This document shows positions 42,793-54,330 of a stretch of DNA of 54,330 bases, piece after piece (the stretch's first letter is position 1; every line of letters begins with the position of its first letter). Source of the DNA: Legionella adelaidensis (lineage in GTDB: Bacteria > Pseudomonadota > Gammaproteobacteria > Legionellales > Legionellaceae); contig NZ_LR134414.1 in assembly GCF_900637865.1 (NCBI RefSeq), forward strand, positions 1 through 54,330. The letters run 5' to 3'. A program made the position numbers and the translations under genes. The notes under the pieces are model-generated. The model was not told the origin of the DNA, ran no database searches, and saw only the letters and a list, made by a program, of their open reading frames with translations.

Positions 42793-44904
42793 TTAGTTAG
42801 GAATCTTTTTTATAGTAAAGCATTGGTGAATCCGAGAATTCCTTTTAAAATCCACATCAATCGTTTCTGAACTTATATCTTTCACTTCGTAATTTTCTTT
42901 TATCTGGGGCGAGAGTTTAAATTGCCTTAAATTGGTAGAAAAATAAAGTATCCCATCGGCCGTCAAAATACGCATGGCTGCATCGATCAAAGCAACATGA
43001 TCCCGTTGAATATCTAGAGTCGTGTTCATACGCTTAGAATTTGAAAAACTAGGCGGGTCGAGAAAAATAACATTAAATCGGTCATGGGTTGTTTTTAACC
43101 ACTTAATACAATCATATTGAATAAACTGATGCTTGTTTATAGGCAGATTATTTAATTTAAAATTTTCTTCGGCCCATTGGAGATACGTGTTGGATAAATC
43201 AACATTGGTAGTAAAAGCACCTGCAAGCGCAGCATGTACACTAGCCGTCGCAGTATAGCAAAAACAATTTAAAAAACGCGTCCCACTAGGCAGCTCCGCA
43301 AAGCGAAGACGAAGCGGTCTGTGGTCTAAAAACAACCCCGTATCTAAATAATCATACAAGTTCACTTTTATTTTTGCCTGGCCTTCCTGAACTATGAGGG
43401 AATGTTTGGTTTTATTAAGCTTTTGATATTGGCTCGTTCCCTTTTGCTGTTTTCGCTGTTTAACAACTAAATTCTCGGGAGGAATACGTAAGACCGAAGG
43501 GGTTATTTGAATAACATCTAAACTGCGTTGCTCCACTTTATGCTGTGGAATGCTAGAGGGCGCCGTATATTCTTGTAATACTGCATGATCATTATAAATA
43601 TCAATAGCAAATGCATATTCTGGCAAATCGGCATCATAGACACGGTAACAACTTATATGGTTTTTTTTGGCCCATTTACTAAGATGAGAAAAGTTTTTCT
43701 CTAATCGATTGGCGAACATTTCACCACCCGCTGACAATTTGCCGCTACGTGTGCCGCGTAGCTCATTTCCCTCCAGATTTAATGTATATAATTTACACTC
43801 AATAGGACCATTAAAAAGCGTATATTGTTTCTCAGCCCGAAGGCCTGTAGCTTTAGCTAACAACGGATTGGAGGTGATAAAAGCAGCGCGCCACCCTTGA
43901 AAATGCGTATGCATTATACTGCCTAACTGTTGATAAACAGGAACTAGCTGGGTGGCATCCCCTAAACGCTCACCATAGGGTGGATTAGCTATCAATAATC
44001 CTTTTGGAGCAAGTGGTTTTGCATCTTTTAAATAACCAACATCAAACTCAACTAGCCGCGCAACGCCCGCACGCGAAGCATTTTCGTTAGCAATTTTAAT
44101 CATTCTGACGTCACTATCAGTGCCGTAAAATTTTTGCGTAACGGGTCTCACTTGTTGTAAAGCCTGTGCACGCAATTTTTCCCACAGTGAGGGCTGGTGC
44201 AAAACCCAGTGATGCAAAGATTGATCGTCTCGTAAAAGTCCGGGCGCTATCTGTGCAGCGATCATGGCACCTTCTATAATCAATGTTCCCGCACCACAAA
44301 AGGGATCATATAAAGTATATCCTTGTGAAGCCAAATGGGGCCAATTAGCACGAATAAGCATACTTGCAGCTACATTTTCTTTTAAAGGCGCGGCGCCTGC
44401 GTGACTTCGGTATCCTCTTTGATGAAGGCTATAGCCGGTTAAATCAAAACTCACGGTTACTATGTCATTCTTTAAATGAACGTGTATAAGAATTTCCGGT
44501 TTTTCTTTATTTATGGCCGGTCGCACGCCTTGAAGACGGCGAAAATGATCGACTATCGCATCTTTGACTACCTGCGCACCGAACATAGAATTTCTAATTT
44601 GTGGATTTGAACCATGAAACTCAATAGCAAATGTCTTATTAGCGGAAAAAACCGTTTGCCAGGCAAATTGGTTGCAGAGGCCATAAAGGGTCTGCTCATT
44701 ATGAGCTTGGCCATTGAACAATAATAATTGAATGCGGTTGGCTATTCTGGACCACAAGCACAATTGATAAATGATTTGTATAGTGGCCTCACCGAAAACA
44801 CCTTGAGGACTAACACGAGTCACCCTTAAGCCTAACGCTTTTAACTCGTCCTCCAATAAATATTCCAATCCTTTAGGACAACTAACAAATACGTTATGTA
44901 TCAT
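42793..44904 (-). CDS. rlmL: Bifunctional 23S rRNA methyltransferase RlmKL
   Basis: A 703-aa fusion enzyme making m2G2445 and m7G2069. A THUMP RNA-binding domain (about 45-155) is followed by the RlmL methyltransferase domain with DPFCGAGTLIIEGA and ANPPYGERLG, then a linker, and the RlmK domain with FLNCFCYTATASVHAALAG and FLDPPSFSNSKRM. Both catalytic domains look intact. The ATG at 44904 overlaps the darP stop (ATGA), so the two are coupled. A 235-bp AT-rich gap with no gene separates it from parC. Confidence 0.96.
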   Translation of the reverse strand: MIHNVFVSCPKGLEYLLEDELKALGLRVTRVSPQGVFGEATIQIIYQLCLWSRIANRIQLLLFNGQAHNEQTLYGLCNQFAWQTVFSANKTFAIEFHGSNPQIRNSMFGAQVVKDAIVDHFRRLQGVRPAINKEKPEILIHVHLKNDIVTVSFDLTGYSLHQRGYRSHAGAAPLKENVAASMLIRANWPHLASQGYTLYDPFCGAGTLIIEGAMIAAQIAPGLLRDDQSLHHWVLHQPSLWEKLRAQALQQVRPVTQKFYGTDSDVRMIKIANENASRAGVARLVEFDVGYLKDAKPLAPKGLLIANPPYGERLGDATQLVPVYQQLGSIMHTHFQGWRAAFITSNPLLAKATGLRAEKQYTLFNGPIECKLYTLNLEGNELRGTRSGKLSAGGEMFANRLEKNFSHLSKWAKKNHISCYRVYDADLPEYAFAIDIYNDHAVLQEYTAPSSIPQHKVEQRSLDVIQITPSVLRIPPENLVVKQRKQQKGTSQYQKLNKTKHSLIVQEGQAKIKVNLYDYLDTGLFLDHRPLRLRFAELPSGTRFLNCFCYTATASVHAALAGAFTTNVDLSNTYLQWAEENFKLNNLPINKHQFIQYDCIKWLKTTHDRFNVIFLDPPSFSNSKRMNTTLDIQRDHVALIDAAMRILTADGILYFSTNLRQFKLSPQIKENYEVKDISSETIDVDFKRNSRIHQCFTIKKIPN

Positions 44905-45380
44905 TCTACACAAGACCTTAAAAAACGAAACAATGCTCTGGCTGCACCTTTATTCTGTTGCTTTTGCTGCTCTTCTATTGCCTTCTTTACAAGCTGCCTG
45001 AGTTGTTGCACATCTTGTGGATGATAAGCATCTATAAAAGCGGTTAGTGCATCTTTACCTTCATTTATTAAACGATCGCGCCATTGTTCCAGCTCATGAA
45101 ATGCAGCCGTTTGCGCCCTCTCTTTAGCCAAAAGCCCTTCATACGCGTCAATAATCGCTGCACTATCATCAGCTCGCATGAGCTTCCCAATAAGTTGCGA
45201 TTGGCGCCTGATAGCCCCATGACTTTTTATTTTTTTAGCATCCAAGATAGCTTGTTTAAGCGGCGGAGAAAGAGGCAAGGTATCTAATTTCTCCTTGCTT
45301 AAATCGATTAATTTTACTCCAATTTTTTGCAAAACATCTGCTTCGCGCTTTTTTTGCGATTTACTTTTTATATCTTCCAT
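44901..45380 (-). CDS. darP: Ribosome-associated protein DarP (YjgA, UPF0307)
   Basis: A 159-aa helical, charged protein. SKSQKKREADVLQKIGVKL near the N-terminus, LDTLPLSPPLKQAI, RRQSQLIGKLMR and the C-terminal RALFRFLR are the conserved UPF0307 blocks. DarP associates with late 50S ribosomal precursors, which fits its coupling to the rRNA methyltransferase gene rlmL. The ATG at 45380 is preferred to a GTG nine bases earlier. Confidence 0.92.
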   Translation of the reverse strand: MEDIKSKSQKKREADVLQKIGVKLIDLSKEKLDTLPLSPPLKQAILDAKKIKSHGAIRRQSQLIGKLMRADDSAAIIDAYEGLLAKERAQTAAFHELEQWRDRLINEGKDALTAFIDAYHPQDVQQLRQLVKKAIEEQQKQQNKGAARALFRFLRSCVE

Positions 45381-45445
45381 TAATATCACGCGTTATAAAT
45401 ATTGGTATTCATTATAGGCGGGGCAGGGATATTTGGCGAATACCG

Positions 45446-46360
45446 TTAAACGTTATTCGCTTTATTTTCCAAAGAATAATCCCAGTCGCTTTTAACAGGA
45501 CGCGCACGGAAATAAGAACGTCCAATAGCAATTAAATTATAAATTACAATTGCTAAAAGTAATGAGTGCAGCCAAGTTACTGTAAGATGGGCAAAGAGGG
45601 GAAGCGTTATAAACACACCCAAGCATCCGGAAAAACTAAGTATTAAGGTTTTTTTCAATGGAATTTTATCGTGTTTTAAAAATACCAAAGTCGTTAAGGG
45701 TTGTTGCATGGCACCGGCTGTGGTCATAATAGGAAAGGCAACTAAAGGGGACACATTTAATAAAAACAATACCCCTTGCACCATAACAAACAATCCAATC
45801 CCAACTGAAGTTAAAGCGCCGCAAACAATCATTGCCAGAAAGCCCACTATTAACTTCCATGAATGGAGCTCAGAAACATCGCCGCCCACTGGCAATACAT
45901 GAAATTGATGGGCTAATAGCAAAAAGATAATTAATACAAAACAGCACATCATAGCCAAGCGAATGGCTTGTTTGCTCAGTCGGCTTACAACCGCTCCCCC
46001 TAATAAACCACCAATACAAGTTCCCGCAACGAGTGTTACCAGGGTAGTCAGATCTACATTAATAATTTGCATGAAGAATAAAGACTCAATGGTTCCAGGT
46101 ATTACCTGGGCACCATTGTTAACGGCAGGAAGCTCGTCATCCGCGAAGGTATTTAACAATTTTGCCAGTGCAACGTTAACTGCAAAACTCCCCACACCCA
46201 AGGTGTCAGAAATAAAAGCGATAACGCCGCTTATTCCTAATTTTAAATATTCAACTGGGGAAATCTTTACTGAAGGTTGTTTTCTTAGTTTATAAAACAT
46301 TACAAACGCGCAAATTAAACTAAGAAGCAATATAAAGGCAGTAATGAGATAAATAACCAT
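45446..46360 (-). CDS. TauE/SafE-family (TSUP) membrane permease
   Basis: A 304-aa polytopic membrane protein with about eight helices. GISGVIAFISDTLGVGSFAVNVAL and GTCIGGLLGGAVVSRLSKQAIRLAM, followed later by GALTSVGIGLFVMVQG, form the two glycine-rich half-repeats typical of TSUP transporters. The family moves sulfite, sulfoacetate and other small organic anions; the substrate here cannot be read from sequence. It stands alone, 65 bp upstream of darP on the same strand. Confidence 0.88.
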   Translation of the reverse strand: MVIYLITAFILLLSLICAFVMFYKLRKQPSVKISPVEYLKLGISGVIAFISDTLGVGSFAVNVALAKLLNTFADDELPAVNNGAQVIPGTIESLFFMQIINVDLTTLVTLVAGTCIGGLLGGAVVSRLSKQAIRLAMMCCFVLIIFLLLAHQFHVLPVGGDVSELHSWKLIVGFLAMIVCGALTSVGIGLFVMVQGVLFLLNVSPLVAFPIMTTAGAMQQPLTTLVFLKHDKIPLKKTLILSFSGCLGVFITLPLFAHLTVTWLHSLLLAIVIYNLIAIGRSYFRARPVKSDWDYSLENKANNV

Positions 46361-47776: not shown

Positions 47777-50700
47777 TTAGATTGAGGTTGAAAGAATATT
47801 GGTTATCTCCATCGCCAATGATTTCACATTCGGCTGGAATAACATAGTTTCATGATTTCCGGGAATAAGTAGTTTATTAATTTTTCCATCAATATATGTT
47901 GACCATCCATTTACTGGGTGGTCTATAGGAATAAAATCATTCCATAACTCTGAAGCTTTGAATAAAAAAGGATCGAGCTTTAATTTAGGAAACCTATATT
48001 TTTGTAAAAGTTCTTTCCTATATTCCTCTAAATTTGCTAAATATTCTTTTTTATCCCCAGATATTTTTTTGTCGTGGTTAATAAGAAGCTTTGTTGTATT
48101 CTCTTTCATCATATTATCAGGATAATGAGCCCAGCCATCTATTAATCCTAAAAAACCGACTTTTTTATTTAAAGCTTGTAATTGATTGGCCATTTCAAAA
48201 GCTACAGTAGCGCCAAAAGAAGCACCTGCCAGATAAAAACATTCTTTTTTATAAATTTTTTGAATCTCTTGTAGATAATAACTTGCCATATCTTCTAAGC
48301 TTTTAAAACGAAGGGAATGACCATCTATACTTGGGTCTTGAATTCCATAAACCGTGAATCTTTTTGAGAGAAGTGAAGCCAAATGCTTGTACCAAAAAAT
48401 TGAACCTCCAACTGGATGAACAAGAAACAACGGGATTGCGTGCTCCCCTTTTGCTAATTTTAATAGGGTTACAGGACCAGCGTTTTCTCTTTTATTTAGC
48501 TGCTTTTCTATTTGTGCTGTTAATTTTGCTATTGTGGGATATTCAAATAAGTAAGAAAGTGGAATTTCTTTTTTAAAGTATTGTTTTATTTCGAGCATAA
48601 TTTGTAGGGCTAACAAAGAATCTCCACCTAGATCAAAAAAATCTGCATGATGATCAATAGCTCTAATATGAAATGCTCGCTGCCAAATACCAATAATTAT
48701 TTTTTCATTCTCTGAAAGTTCCTCATTTACCTGATCTTCGTAAGTAAGCATTTGAAAAGATTGTTTTTTTAGTGCCACCAGATCAATTTTTTCATTATCT
48801 CTTAAAGGGATTTTATCAGTTAAACAAAATTCTTTAGGAATCATGTAGGAAGGAAAATGCGCAGCTAGAAATTTCTTTATATCTACTATAGAAATATCTT
48901 TATTATTGCTAACCATATAAGCTCGTAAATATTTTTCCTTTACCGCCCCTTTTTGTACCAGAACTACAGCTTGCTCAATTTCTGGAATTTTTAAAAGTAC
49001 TGACTCAATGGCCGGTAATTCAATCCGATATCCTTGAATTTTTACTTGAAAATCATTTCGGCCAAAAAATTGTAAATACCCCCCAGGTAACCAGGCCGCC
49101 AAGTCCCCAGTTCTATACAAAACTTCTTCTTTATCTTCAATGGTTAAACGCACGAATTTTTCCTGCGTCATATGAGGCTTATTTAAATATCCTTCGGCTA
49201 CTTGAGAACCACCAATAAATAACTCACCCTTCATCCCAATAGGACACAAATTTTTATACTTATCAAAAATGTAGGCACTGGAATTAAAAGCAGGTCTTCC
49301 GATTGGAACGCTCGCTTCATTGAAAAAGTCTTTTTCATCAATAAAAAAAGAAGTAACAGAGACGGTTGCTTCTGTTGGGCCATACTCATTGACAATTCGG
49401 TGATGGGGAGCTAGCTTCTTCCATTTCACTACTTCTTCAGTGTGGACCACATCCGCTCCAAGCATCATGTATCTTAAATCCTTTAAATTTTTTACTAACG
49501 ACGGGTAATGTAAAAGCATTTCAACATAACCTGGTGTTAATTCTACATGAGTTACTTTTTGCTTTTTTAAATATTTTAGATAAAGCTTGGGGTTGGTTTT
49601 TTCTTCGACAGAGCAAATGGCAACGCATCCGCCTCTAATTAGAGGGGCTATTGTACAAGGGACGGATAAATCAAAGGCGATCGAAGACGAAAAATCGATA
49701 ATGGAGTTTTCATTAAATTCAGTGGTGGCAAGAAACCAATAACAATAATTAAGAACGTTCTTTTGGGAAATCATAACTCCTTTAGGAGTACCGGTAGTCC
49801 CGGAGGTAAACATAACATAAGCCAAGCTATCAAAGGATGGCTGATTTATCTCCTTATTTTCTGCTAAATTTTTATCTAGAATTTTTTCAATTGGATGAAT
49901 TTTGAGGTTTATATTTTTACTAAAATGTGTTTTTAGATTTTCTTTTAGCGGGATAGTTGTAAATAAATAGTTAAATTTTGACTCTTCAATAATAGTTTCA
50001 ATTTTTAAAAAAGGGTAGCGCGTGTCTAAAGGAACATAGATGCAGTTTGCTTTTAAAATTCCTAAGATAACTCCTAACATTTCTGGACTTCTTTGGAGAT
50101 ATACCCCAACTAATGACTGTGATGGAAGGTTTTTCTCACGGATAAATGCGGCCACTTTGCAAGCCATTTCATCGAGCTCTAAGTATGTAACTGTTTGCTC
50201 TCCAAAAATAATAGCGGTTTTGTGGGGAAAGTTTTTAACATTTTCAGAAAATATTTGATATATTGATTTTTGTGGTATAGCAACTGTTTCCCCTTTACCC
50301 CAATTGTTAACTAAAGTTTTTGACTCATCAGTGGTTAAAAAATCAAAATGAGCAGCTTTTGTATGAGGCTCTTCAATTAAAAGTTTAAAAATGTTTAATA
50401 TATGATTTGCTAAATTGTTCAACAGAACATTTAAGAGACCACAGTGATATTGTGGATCTATAGATTCATAAATTTTTAAAGTTTTTGAACTATTACACCA
50501 GTCAAAATAGAGAAGGGTCTTCTCCGGTAATTTATCTATAAAAGATATACCCGTTGTATTAATTACAATTCCTGTATTTAAGTCTTTCCCTTCTAACACG
50601 GAATGACGCGCAGCAATATCTGTGAAAAAAGTTTGGTATTTTTTTTGGACCAGAACGCTATTTTTTATTATTTCGGCAATGGAGCCCAAGGTCTCTTTGC

Positions 50701-51952
50701 TATCCCAGTTTGTAGATACAGGAATAAATTTAGAATAAATATTCTCAACGTGGCCAGAAAAATTTCCGTCATCGATAGCAAATGAAACTGTTGTGTTTTC
50801 AAAATTATTTAAGCGATAAAGATAAATAAGAATGGCAGAAAGAACATTATTTAATAATTCTTGGCTTTTAACTATAAAAGGCTCAAAAGAGATAGTATCT
50901 AATACACGCAATTTATGTTCGTTTTTAAGGCTAGTGGGGAAAGTCGTGTGCTCATTTAAATTTTTTAATTCAGATAACCAGTAACTTTCATGTTTAATAG
51001 TTTGCGCATAGAATTTTTTTTCTGCCGCAGATATTTCATTAAAAACGGGAAGTTGATCCCCCACCTTTAAACCATAATGACGCATGACCTCCGGAGGGGA
51101 GAGCGTCTTCCCTTGTTTTGAAACAATATTTTTAACTTTTATTGCTTTGGATATGGTTGAAATCTCTAAAAAATCCTCGGTAAAATCTAAAATGAGTCCC
51201 GGGCCAAAGTTCGAGGCTATCTCAGATATTTCAACTTCCTTGATTAATATATAGTCGTTAGCTAAATATAATTTTAACGAGCCAATATTATTATTGTAAT
51301 GCCCTAAGGTAGTCGCTTTGCAAAATAGCTTAATGTATTCTCCCGAAAATTTTTCCCAATCAATAAATCCAAAATTAGGTAAAATTGCACTTACCCCGAA
51401 ATAACTACGCTGAGTTAAATCTTGTTTCTGTAATTTGACATTTTCGTTAACAAGCTCGACTAAAAGATCCTTAAACGACTGCACTGCGTATTCATAGCAA
51501 CGTAGGTTTAGTGAAAATGCGGTATCTTCAGGGAGAATAGGAAATTTTACCTGCTTAAGAAGATCCCCCTCATCGATTCCTGCATCGATTAAATGCCAAC
51601 TAACTCCATGTTCGCGTTCTTCGCTTAGTAGCGCCCACGTAGTAGCGTTTACTCCAGCATATTTAGGTAGTATGGAATCATGATAATTAATAGAGCCTTT
51701 TCTTGCGAACTTTAAAACTGAATGTGAAAGAATATAGCTATTTACGATACTAAAAATGTAATCTACATTGCGAGGAGAACTCTCTTGAAAATCATTTAAA
51801 GAAGGGAAACAAGGGATGTCCTGTTTTTTTGCCCACGTTTGTACGCTTAAGAGAGGAGAAACAATCGCTTCAATTTTGCAGCTTTGTTCCAACAATAATT
51901 TACCACATTGAATAAGTAAACTATCTTCACCGATCAAAAAACAAGAAAACAT
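47777..51952 (-). CDS. Single-module NRPS: formyltransferase, half condensation domain, adenylation, carrier, thioesterase
   Basis: A 1391-aa one-protein assembly line. Residues 1-205 are a formyltransferase (INYHDSILPKYAG with N89 and H91; DAGIDEGD with the catalytic Asp); about 205-300 resemble the C-terminal formyltransferase domain. Residues about 310-550 match only the second half of a condensation domain; no HHxxxDG is present. Adenylation spans about 562-1070 (FTSGTTGTPKGV, NEYGPTE, YRTGD, lysine K1055). The carrier has GGDSLLAL with S1112. The thioesterase (about 1165-1391) has S1245, D1272 and H1367. Expected product: an N-formylated amino acid or short conjugate released by the thioesterase. 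The formyl donor would be 10-formyl-tetrahydrofolate. No phosphopantetheinyl transferase gene or exporter is adjacent. A hybrid kinase is divergent, 106 bp away. Confidence 0.9.
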   Translation of the reverse strand: MFSCFLIGEDSLLIQCGKLLLEQSCKIEAIVSPLLSVQTWAKKQDIPCFPSLNDFQESSPRNVDYIFSIVNSYILSHSVLKFARKGSINYHDSILPKYAGVNATTWALLSEEREHGVSWHLIDAGIDEGDLLKQVKFPILPEDTAFSLNLRCYEYAVQSFKDLLVELVNENVKLQKQDLTQRSYFGVSAILPNFGFIDWEKFSGEYIKLFCKATTLGHYNNNIGSLKLYLANDYILIKEVEISEIASNFGPGLILDFTEDFLEISTISKAIKVKNIVSKQGKTLSPPEVMRHYGLKVGDQLPVFNEISAAEKKFYAQTIKHESYWLSELKNLNEHTTFPTSLKNEHKLRVLDTISFEPFIVKSQELLNNVLSAILIYLYRLNNFENTTVSFAIDDGNFSGHVENIYSKFIPVSTNWDSKETLGSIAEIIKNSVLVQKKYQTFFTDIAARHSVLEGKDLNTGIVINTTGISFIDKLPEKTLLYFDWCNSSKTLKIYESIDPQYHCGLLNVLLNNLANHILNIFKLLIEEPHTKAAHFDFLTTDESKTLVNNWGKGETVAIPQKSIYQIFSENVKNFPHKTAIIFGEQTVTYLELDEMACKVAAFIREKNLPSQSLVGVYLQRSPEMLGVILGILKANCIYVPLDTRYPFLKIETIIEESKFNYLFTTIPLKENLKTHFSKNINLKIHPIEKILDKNLAENKEINQPSFDSLAYVMFTSGTTGTPKGVMISQKNVLNYCYWFLATTEFNENSIIDFSSSIAFDLSVPCTIAPLIRGGCVAICSVEEKTNPKLYLKYLKKQKVTHVELTPGYVEMLLHYPSLVKNLKDLRYMMLGADVVHTEEVVKWKKLAPHHRIVNEYGPTEATVSVTSFFIDEKDFFNEASVPIGRPAFNSSAYIFDKYKNLCPIGMKGELFIGGSQVAEGYLNKPHMTQEKFVRLTIEDKEEVLYRTGDLAAWLPGGYLQFFGRNDFQVKIQGYRIELPAIESVLLKIPEIEQAVVLVQKGAVKEKYLRAYMVSNNKDISIVDIKKFLAAHFPSYMIPKEFCLTDKIPLRDNEKIDLVALKKQSFQMLTYEDQVNEELSENEKIIIGIWQRAFHIRAIDHHADFFDLGGDSLLALQIMLEIKQYFKKEIPLSYLFEYPTIAKLTAQIEKQLNKRENAGPVTLLKLAKGEHAIPLFLVHPVGGSIFWYKHLASLLSKRFTVYGIQDPSIDGHSLRFKSLEDMASYYLQEIQKIYKKECFYLAGASFGATVAFEMANQLQALNKKVGFLGLIDGWAHYPDNMMKENTTKLLINHDKKISGDKKEYLANLEEYRKELLQKYRFPKLKLDPFLFKASELWNDFIPIDHPVNGWSTYIDGKINKLLIPGNHETMLFQPNVKSLAMEITNILSTSI

Positions 51953-52058
51953 TTTAAAATTCCATACTATACTTAGTGAAATTCCACCCGAAAAAATTAA
52001 ACAATTGATTTTACCAGGAAAACAAAAGAACCAACTGGTAGTATAATAACATAAAAGT

Positions 52059-54330
52059 ATGAATATTATCCACCACCCCTTAATTCGCTCACTTTTAAAT
52101 AGCTCTTCTGAGGCTATGTTAATATTTGATGAAAAACTCAGGCTGCTGGATATTAATGAAACGGCAAAACAACTGTATTTGAACGATTTGTTACTTCAGA
52201 AAGAAATAAAAAACGCTTTTGAATTTTACATTACAGACCCCACTACTCAATTTCCTCAAAAGAAATCACTCTTAATTAACAATCAAGAAATCGAATGGCA
52301 GATAGAAAAAATTGATGATGCTCATAACATTTTTTATCTCATTCACTCCATAGAGTTAAAGCCAAAATTAGCTTCGAATGAAATTTTTCAATTAGAGACT
52401 CTTATTGAGAATATGCCTTGCAATGTTTATTGGGTGGATCGCGACTGTAAAATGATCAATTGCAATCAAAATGTTTTAAACATGTTAAATATGACCCGAG
52501 AAGATTTTAAAGGAAAAACTTACGAAGAATTAGCAGAAATTTGTGCCTGGCCGGAGGGGCTTTGCCAAAAATTAAAAAATGATGATCTTACAGTAATGGA
52601 GTCGGGAGTGCCTATCTTTGGAGTAGAAGATCCCCCCGTTCCTCATGCCGATGGGACTTTTTCAAACTTCTTATCAAATAGAGTTCCTTTGCGAAACAAA
52701 GACGGAGAAGTTGTAGGTATTGCGGGTATTTCAGTAGAAATTACGGCACTAAAGGAAGCAAGAGCAAATGCTGAATTAGCTAGCTTAGCTAAAACAGAAT
52801 TCATTGCAAATATGAGCCACGACATACGCACCCCACTAAGTGGGATCGTTGGCTTATCGGAGCTTCTCGAAGAACTTGCTGCAGACGAAGAACAAAAGCA
52901 ATTCTCCGAATCCATTAATCAGTGTGCAGAGCAACTATTAGGCCTTTTAAATGGTATCTTAGATGTGGTCTCTGCAGATAATGTAAATGAACATGATCTG
53001 CATTTTGAAGATTTTGAGTTAAGGCATTGTTTACAGAGTTTAGTTGATTTAGAGCGTCCTTCGACAAAATTAAAAGGTCTCTCTCTATTATTAGATATTG
53101 AAGAGAATGTTCCTCTTTATTTATTTAATGACCGTACAAAAATCCATCGAATTTTATTAAATCTTTTAGGTAACGCTATAAAATTTACAAAAGAAGGCTC
53201 GGTCACTATAAAAGTTAATTGTGTTTCTAATTGTGGAGACCAAACGAAATTACGATTTGAAGTGATAGACACAGGCATTGGTATCGCTAAAGACAAGTTA
53301 AACAAAGTTTTTGAACGCTTTTATAGAATAAGTCCTTCATACAAAGGCGTTTATACAGGACACGGTTTAGGACTGCATATCGCTCAAGAATACGCAAATT
53401 TGTTAGAGACCGCTATACATGTTACTAGCGAAGAAGGAAAAGGGACTACTTTTTACTTTGACCTAACCTCCAAAATAGGAAGGAAACCTACTAAAAAATT
53501 TGAGGACAATAGACTTAAAGATAAAAAAGAAAAGGTATTTTCTAAGCCGTCATTAAAAAAAACTTCCCAGCCAACTGCCTCTATTAACGCACCGAAGGTA
53601 TTACTGATAGAAGATAATACTATCGCTTTAAAAATGGCCGAAACATTTGCTTTGCGTGCAGGGCTTCAATACCAATCTGCTATTGATGGCGAAAGCGGGT
53701 TAGAGCTGGCCAAAAACCATCCTTTCGATCTGATTGTCAGTGACATTGGGCTACCGGGAATATCTGGCATACAGTTCACTAAGCTATTTCGCGAGTGGGA
53801 AGCTGCTGAAAATAAAAAACCCATACCGATTGTTGCTTTAACTGCCCATGTTCGCGACGAAGCAAAGCTGGAATGTTTGCAAGCTGGAATTACTGAGGTT
53901 TTTACAAAACCGGTTAGTTTGGAAATTATGAAGACAGCTGTATCTTTAATTAGACCCGGTATAAACGGTCTTAATGATCATATACTAGAGGAAAATACCC
54001 CAAAAACAACAAACTCATTGGGGGTCGATTTACCTGATACAGAGGATGAGCTTTTCACCTTGGATCAATATTCTATTCTAGATAAAAATTTAGGCATCCA
54101 AAATTCCGGTAGTGAAGAATTACTCTTACAAATGTTAGACCTCATGGCGAATCAAGAACTCCCTAAAGATATAGAAGCTATTAAAAAGGCACATGAAAGT
54201 CAGGATTGGACCGCTGTTGAAAAATTGGCTCACAAAATGAAAGGCGGTGCGGTCTACCTGGGTACCGTACGCATGAAATATGCTTGCCAGTATCTAGAAC
54301 GATATATAAAAGCAGGGCATTCTAATTATG
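52059..54330 (+). CDS. Hybrid sensor histidine kinase PAS-HisKA-HATPase-REC-Hpt (partial, 3' end outside window)
   Basis: The frame is open from the ATG at 52059 to the window edge (757 codons). There is no membrane segment, so the sensor is cytosolic. A PAS domain (about 115-235, [20 protein letters not shown]) is followed by the H-box [13 protein letters not shown] (H254), the ATPase N-box LLGNAIKFT (near 370), [10 protein letters not shown] and [10 protein letters not shown], then a receiver (VLLIEDN, phospho-acceptor D562 in SDIGLPG, Lys in TKPVS) and an Hpt domain (LAHKMKGG, H725). The order is ArcB-like, giving a His-Asp-His relay to an unseen response regulator. TATAAT lies at 52042-52047, without a clear -35. 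It is divergent from the NRPS. Confidence 0.93.

Follow-up and report, generated by a model that had tools for sequence, protein, structure and literature searches.

A stretch of 54,330 nucleotides from Legionella adelaidensis (contig NZ_LR134414.1, positions 1 to 54,330, forward strand), here called the window, carries two divergent genes near its end. The first encodes a one-module nonribosomal peptide synthetase (NRPS) of 1391 aa, in which a formyltransferase (F) domain, half a condensation (C) domain, an adenylation (A) domain, a carrier (T) domain and a thioesterase (TE) follow each other (47777..51952, minus strand; open reading frame (ORF) translation and Pfam). The second encodes a hybrid histidine kinase (52059..54329, plus strand; ORF list and Pfam), of which 757 aa are visible and the last residues are not, because the gene runs to the contig end. 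The ORF limits leave a gap of 106 bases between them (51953..52058). With some reservation, this divergent pair is best read as a signal synthase and its own receptor kinase, using one-residue N-formyl signals. The original prediction, made from the window alone, described the synthetase anatomy and proposed a one-residue formylating enzyme, both of which stand; it missed the pairing with the kinase and the family-wide character of the half domain. The pairing with a sensor kinase is the stronger clue to what the synthetase does.

The pairing was examined in all 56 F matches of at least 140 bits from 143 Legionellaceae genomes, the 55 others being taken in stretches of up to 20 kb. A releasing domain ends 43 of the 56 F-type ORFs, either a TE (30) or a reductase (R; 13), and a kinase homologue is the next gene in all 43. 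Four layouts are present: TE divergent (15 pairs), TE with the kinase downstream (15), R downstream (11) and R divergent (2). The paired kinases reach at least 600 aa in 39 of the 43 cases; two of the others (L172, L173) are cut by contig ends and two (L141, L159) are split into several ORFs. In one gammaproteobacterial metagenome-assembled genome (MAG; locus L048), synthetase and kinase are fused in a single open frame of 2182 aa. As a control, 400 other genes from the Legionellaceae stretches were checked, of which 13 adjoin a kinase, and 14 other NRPS-cluster ORFs, of which 0 do. The 13 F matches outside the 43 are diverse. Five genes with a truncated A domain (L129, L130, L134, L135, L146) do not have a kinase as the next gene, the kinase of L146 lying three genes on, and the gene next to the F-A-T gene L176 is not a kinase. 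Kinase pieces adjoin the fragments L131 and L144 and are absent beside the fragments L177, L178, L179 and L181, while L180, in which the search shows internal stops, has no entry for neighbours.

The ten code positions of the A domains were read by motif alignment, in the GrsA position scheme. The divergent TE synthetases carry DLPE[LM]GEVSK in 15 of 15 cases. Of the 15 with TE and a downstream kinase, 14 carry DAWQFGLI[DE]K and the two-module L167 does not. Among the 13 R synthetases, DAFWLGGTFK occurs eight times, DVYYLGGVCK twice and three other codes once each. The window code, DLPEMGEVSK, has six of ten letters in common with DLTKLGEVGK, presumably the asparagine code, and shares its fourth-place glutamate with DVGEIGSIDK, which is taken to be the ornithine code; neither likeness gives a firm substrate call. 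DAFWLGGTFK differs by one letter from DAFWIGGTFK, the presumed valine code.

It is the sensor half of the kinase that varies with the substrate code of the synthetase; the body does so far less. A tree of whole kinases, made first, left the classes unseparated (22 label changes), and the division into sensor and body was chosen after that result, with the breakpoint set by the domain limits just before the H-box. Quick trees of the sensor, kinase and receiver-Hpt parts were then made separately for the 39 kinases of at least 600 aa. The four named code classes come out as single branches when only the sensors are compared, with 4 label changes, the minimum possible; the kinase tree needs 13, the receiver-Hpt tree 14 and shuffled labels about 20.7. 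The correlation of distances with those of the synthetase is 0.945 for the sensor, 0.34 for the kinase part and 0.44 for receiver-Hpt, all above chance. The second PAS domain alone assigns the code class correctly in 34 of 34 leave-one-out tests. Among five pairs outside the Legionellaceae, the three with codes belonging to a class (L048, L102, L050) receive the matching class, and the two with codes in no class (L098, L103) score low with every class model. One gene lies between kinase and synthetase in L098, and a small ORF in L102. An example of such matching is the fused L048, with the code DLPELGEVAK, whose second PAS scores 216.8 bits with the Legionellaceae DLPE-class model and at most 103.9 with the other three. 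Separately from the pairs, nine kinases (L197-L205) do not stand beside an F gene; their second PAS scores best with the DLPE-class model at 120-149 bits, below the true pairs, and they are possible solo receptors, judging by these scores.

The window kinase has the domain order of a soluble PAS-PAS hybrid histidine kinase. A first PAS (residues ~7-98; 52077..52352, plus strand, as are all kinase domains; PAS_8 at 1e-10, model) precedes the second PAS (residues 117-232; 52407..52754), which is the domain tracking the code class and is identified by Pfam, the class models and structure comparison. HisKA and HATPase_c (52788..53465), a receiver domain (53598..53942) and an Hpt domain (54153..54317) follow, all by Pfam. 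The highest 19-residue hydropathy is 1.07, which by this crude test gives no likely membrane segment; a value above 1.6 is reached in 3 of the 39 paired kinases. The second PAS is of the VqmA type, its nearest relative among solved structures being the quorum-sensing receptor VqmA (6ugl; 19% identity over the PAS). Fold rank alone is no proof of this relation, because phytochrome rows tie with VqmA.

The kinase could instead be the regulator of an ordinary secondary metabolite. In this scenario, the kinase would turn the synthetase on in response to the host or the environment, and the compound made, such as a chelator, an inhibitor or a toxin-like molecule, would act elsewhere. Linked regulators are common in clusters, the kinase is without a DNA-binding output and could feed any response, and VqmA-like PAS domains are also present in kinases that do not adjoin an F gene, 20 of which were analysed. 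A pure regulator, however, needs no sensor matched to the product, and it is the sensor, not the body, which tracks the code inside and outside the Legionellaceae. The synthetase-kinase fusion of L048 would also be odd for a regulator, and no gene family recurs beside the 43 pairs other than a FadL/TodX-type gene. This gene is a minority feature, present beside 5 of the 43 (Pfam was run on 2 of the 5), and fits uptake of the released molecule. The regulator explanation is considered rather unlikely.

Several observations weigh against that reading. The kinase half is not indifferent to the synthetase: its overall correlation, low as it is, lies beyond chance, and inside the code classes it tracks the synthetase with r of 0.64-0.84. 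PAS domains bind many things, and the tie with phytochromes by fold has been mentioned. The window code is not known to equal any assigned code, and the specificity readings of the codes are tentative. When 21 NRPS ORFs lacking F were taken as a further control, 8 of them without a neighbour on at least one side at a contig edge, 4 proved to adjoin a kinase and 17 not; with 43 of 43 pairs on the other side, the pairing is therefore universal among the releasing F-type genes found and not confined to them. Of these four, L234 is by Pfam A-PKS-TE (PKS, polyketide synthase) and L233 acyl-CoA-dehydrogenase-A-T, and L227 and L232 are similar in length to L234. An A-PKS-TE gene of the window's own genome also has an adjacent kinase. 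It encodes 2315 aa arranged as A-T-ketosynthase-acyltransferase-ketoreductase-acyl carrier protein-TE, with a PAS hybrid kinase starting within about 30 bases and then a separate Hpt gene (L237:8184-17733, G000:C13). Many non-Legionellaceae relatives are without such a kinase nearby; a cluster of the kinase family stands at 29 of 80 named loci, mostly of Legionella. One paired synthetase, L150, has lost the formyltransferase residues while code and pair persist, so formylation may not be needed everywhere. Finally, linkage combined with gene conversion in the conserved kinase part could yield the same tracking without any ligand matching.

The last point amounts to an explanation of its own, in which synthetase and sensor end are inherited as one block and the kinase part is overwritten by gene conversion within the genome. 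In both common layouts, it is the sensor end of the kinase that lies closest to the synthetase, and inheritance as a block, with the kinase part converted, is therefore a real alternative for the tracking alone. Eleven comparisons of different-class kinases sharing a genome bear on it: the kinase halves are 77% identical in G062 and 72% in G087, where the sensors are 29% and 31% identical, and in other comparisons the identity of the kinase halves goes down to 33-40%. Linkage leaves unexplained, however, the retention of the kinase in 43 of 43 cases across layouts as well as the fusion, and the sensors still group by class after the change of orientation in L162 and L170. As an account of the whole it is improbable.

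The synthetase ORF is uninterrupted from 51952 to 47777 on the minus strand, and its anatomy agrees with the original prediction in each point. The F domain (residues ~1-295; 51068..51952, minus strand, as are all synthetase domains) was described as complete, and it matches Formyl_trans_N at 1.8e-19 (Formyl_trans_C, at E 0.039, stays below the Pfam cut-off), has N89, H91 and D127 (in DAGIDEGD) all present, and aligns in the model with LgrA. The A domain (residues 561-1070; 48743..50272; Pfam, alignment and code reading), the T domain (residues 1076-1155; 48488..48727) and the TE (residues 1166-1391; 47780..48457), the latter two from Pfam and the translation, are complete by profile (AMP-binding 8.6e-75, AMP-binding_C 8.3e-7, PP-binding 4.7e-14, Thioesterase 2e-23) and by active-site motif, keeping the A-domain lysine, the carrier serine (LGGDSL) and the TE motif GASFG. 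Between F and A lies the C-terminal lobe (C-lobe) of a condensation domain only (residues ~300-556; 50285..51055). Residues 300-556 give no Pfam match at all in the window synthetase, a Condensation domain failing to appear even with E allowed up to 1, and the match to the NCBIfam AusA model begins at residue 321, at model position 177. An AlphaFold model of residues 1-1075 (pLDDT 90.9) superposes from residue ~304 on the C-lobe and A domain of solved modules: residues 305-1062 on EntF (5ja2, chain 175-959; 3.2 A over 732), 302-1009 on SrfA-C (2vsq, chain 179-889; 3.9 A over 643), and on Txo1 (6ozv) at 3.1 A over 636. As the match takes in the EntF chain only from about residue 175 and the SrfA-C chain only from 179, the N-terminal lobe (N-lobe), and HHxxxDG with it, is absent, and no complete condensation fold is predicted. 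In this confident prediction, C-lobe and A domain pack against each other in the way seen in complete modules.

The relatives share this design. A contig scan with the F and C-lobe region as query gave 237 relatives, in which those without a C-lobe are under-represented because the query included it. The best 80 come from Legionella and related MAGs, Photorhabdus, cyanobacteria, Chloroflexi, Acidobacteria, Rickettsiales and others, and L. pneumophila is not named among these 80. In the Legionellaceae, 36 of 143 genomes have a match at E 1e-30 or better (widening the search from family to order added no genome to these 143), and in a spread sample of the class 12 of 369 do, two of them Legionellaceae. 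In 57 aligned sequences from many phyla, a segment of 230-289 aa separates F from the A domain, HHxxxDG is absent from this segment in all 57, and no homologue has an N-lobe. PF00668 is matched only in its later part in three of six relatives scanned by Pfam (L055, model positions 153-455 of 456; L074, 143-454; L062, 187-317). The N/H/D set is intact in 56 of the 57 sequences and in 42 of the 43 releasing Legionellaceae homologues, the single exception in both sets being the same gene, L056/L150. These alignments show the half condensation domain to be the regular architecture of a widespread family. Decay or frameshift as its cause was ruled out, the segment length being conserved in every aligned relative, and the missing N-lobe is not decay because the segment measures 261-282 aa in 43 of 43 releasing Legionellaceae homologues. 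It is thus very improbable that the gene is decaying, with the half domain as a relic and a protein that makes nothing: the catalytic histidines and the N-lobe are indeed gone and broken or truncated members exist (L131, L144, L177-L181), yet every other active-site residue checked is intact.

Taken with the profiles, the confident model and the 56 aligned relatives, the idea of a one-residue formylating synthetase is borne out at the level of sequence. The enzyme probably formylates and then releases a single amino acid. The A domain would activate one amino acid and load it on T, F would formylate its amino group from 10-formyl-tetrahydrofolate, and the TE would free the N-formyl amino acid, or a ring where the side chain permits. 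The C-lobe, unable to make a peptide bond, would most likely keep F beside A through the ordinary C-A interface, which would make it the structural linker that the original prediction considered. The product may be exported or accumulate inside the cell, to be bound by the second, VqmA-like PAS of the soluble kinase, which would act on an output by a phosphorelay over receiver and Hpt. Pairs of this kind that have different codes, or a reductase in place of the TE, would be dialects of the same system. A profile search of the window's genome finds one phosphopantetheinyl transferase above the cut-off and no MbtH-like gene.

The known systems resemble the window pair in parts. LgrA of linear gramicidin (F-A-T) also begins with a formyltransferase for a carrier-bound amino acid, and the synthetase model aligns with it from residue 1. 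In LgrA, however, the A domain starts at about residue 202 without an intervening C-lobe, and further modules come after it, whereas in the window synthetase a C-lobe and linker of ~265 residues separate F from A and the chain ends in T-TE. A 2022 review counts only three peptides formylated by F domains, always in initiation modules (PMC8949500). Tobias et al. described the Legionella clusters C, G and I as single-module NRPS with predicted N-formyl amino acid products, cluster C ending in a reductase and G and I in a TE, and suggested signalling from a linked transcriptional regulator in clusters B-D (2016; PMC5126622). These three clusters very probably belong to the same gene family as the window synthetase. 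The terms 'histidine kinase' and 'two-component' have 0 occurrences in the main text of that paper, and in the text consulted there is no mention of a C-lobe, of how often the genes are paired, of the fusion, of the match between sensor and code or of the VqmA relation. The penicillin tripeptide synthetase is reported to have half a condensation domain, and a search of the open-access literature listed no paper on it.

Among signalling systems, Vfm of Dickeya makes its signal with amino-acid activating domains whose ten-residue codes vary by strain; when linkage of the code variants to the candidate receptor was tested, a permease followed the codes and the kinase VfmI did not (PMC9306890). 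Vfm is a 26-gene type II system, and in the window family, unlike Vfm, the sensor of the kinase follows the code. LqsA-LqsS and CqsA-CqsS are described as genetic pairs of synthase and sensor kinase with a phosphorelay and alpha-hydroxyketone signals (PMC3376566); these sensor kinases are trans-membrane, in contrast to the NRPS and the kinase without a likely membrane segment in the window. In Valdiazen and Pvf, NRPS-related genes yield a small cell-to-cell signal by diazeniumdiolate chemistry, and a paired hybrid kinase, unlike in the window, is not described in the text consulted (PMC5878181, PMC10194917). The receptor VqmA of Vibrio cholerae has a PAS of the same family and is a DNA-binding regulator, while the window kinase has HisKA, HATPase, receiver and Hpt instead. 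DPO, the ligand of VqmA, is a small quorum-sensing autoinducer.

Some features lie outside these questions. Close to the window's pair, at 42796-46360, are genes of the RlmL, DarP and TauE families, and the same clusters by sequence stand near a different, reductase-type pair in G085 (L166), which hints at a shared insertion site. The truncated-A genes L129, L130, L134 and L135 of the Legionellaceae are F-C-lobe genes whose A domain ends early (~820-870 aa); they lie in a conserved cluster, with another NRPS gene near and no kinase adjacent. The neighbours of L039, the named copy of one of them, include by Pfam a SnoaL-like protein, an FAD oxidoreductase and a short-chain dehydrogenase. In six MAGs of Paracaedibacteraceae, Caedibacter, Rickettsiales, Rickettsiaceae, Alphaproteobacteria and Holosporales (L052, L054, L065, L075, L085, L105), the F-type gene is close to a member of one shared gene family, and three of its six members, those scanned, are CmlA-type diiron beta-hydroxylases.

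Signals made by NRPS are already known; what is added here is a receptor assignment for formylating one-module synthetases, a case that is strong but unproven. The co-variation of synthetase and kinase across species suggests that the pair makes and detects a private chemical signal. A wider interpretation is offered tentatively: the Legionellaceae and a few other gammaproteobacteria may possess a family of one-residue nonribosomal signals, in which the code (for example DLPE, DAWQ or DAFW) and the releasing domain, TE or reductase, define the dialect. Each dialect would have a soluble PAS hybrid kinase of its own as reader, the sensor staying matched to the code while the bodies are swapped between pairs. 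The F-type pairs would then be one branch and the A-PKS-TE pair of the same genome another. If true, this would give the family a second chemical language beside the reviewed alpha-hydroxyketone (Lqs) system, and would tie NRPS formylation to signalling. The C-lobe would have a plain role as the docking part of F-type modules. The match between synthetase code and receptor would be readable from sequence, so that the ligand and the receptor of each dialect could be predicted and tested together.

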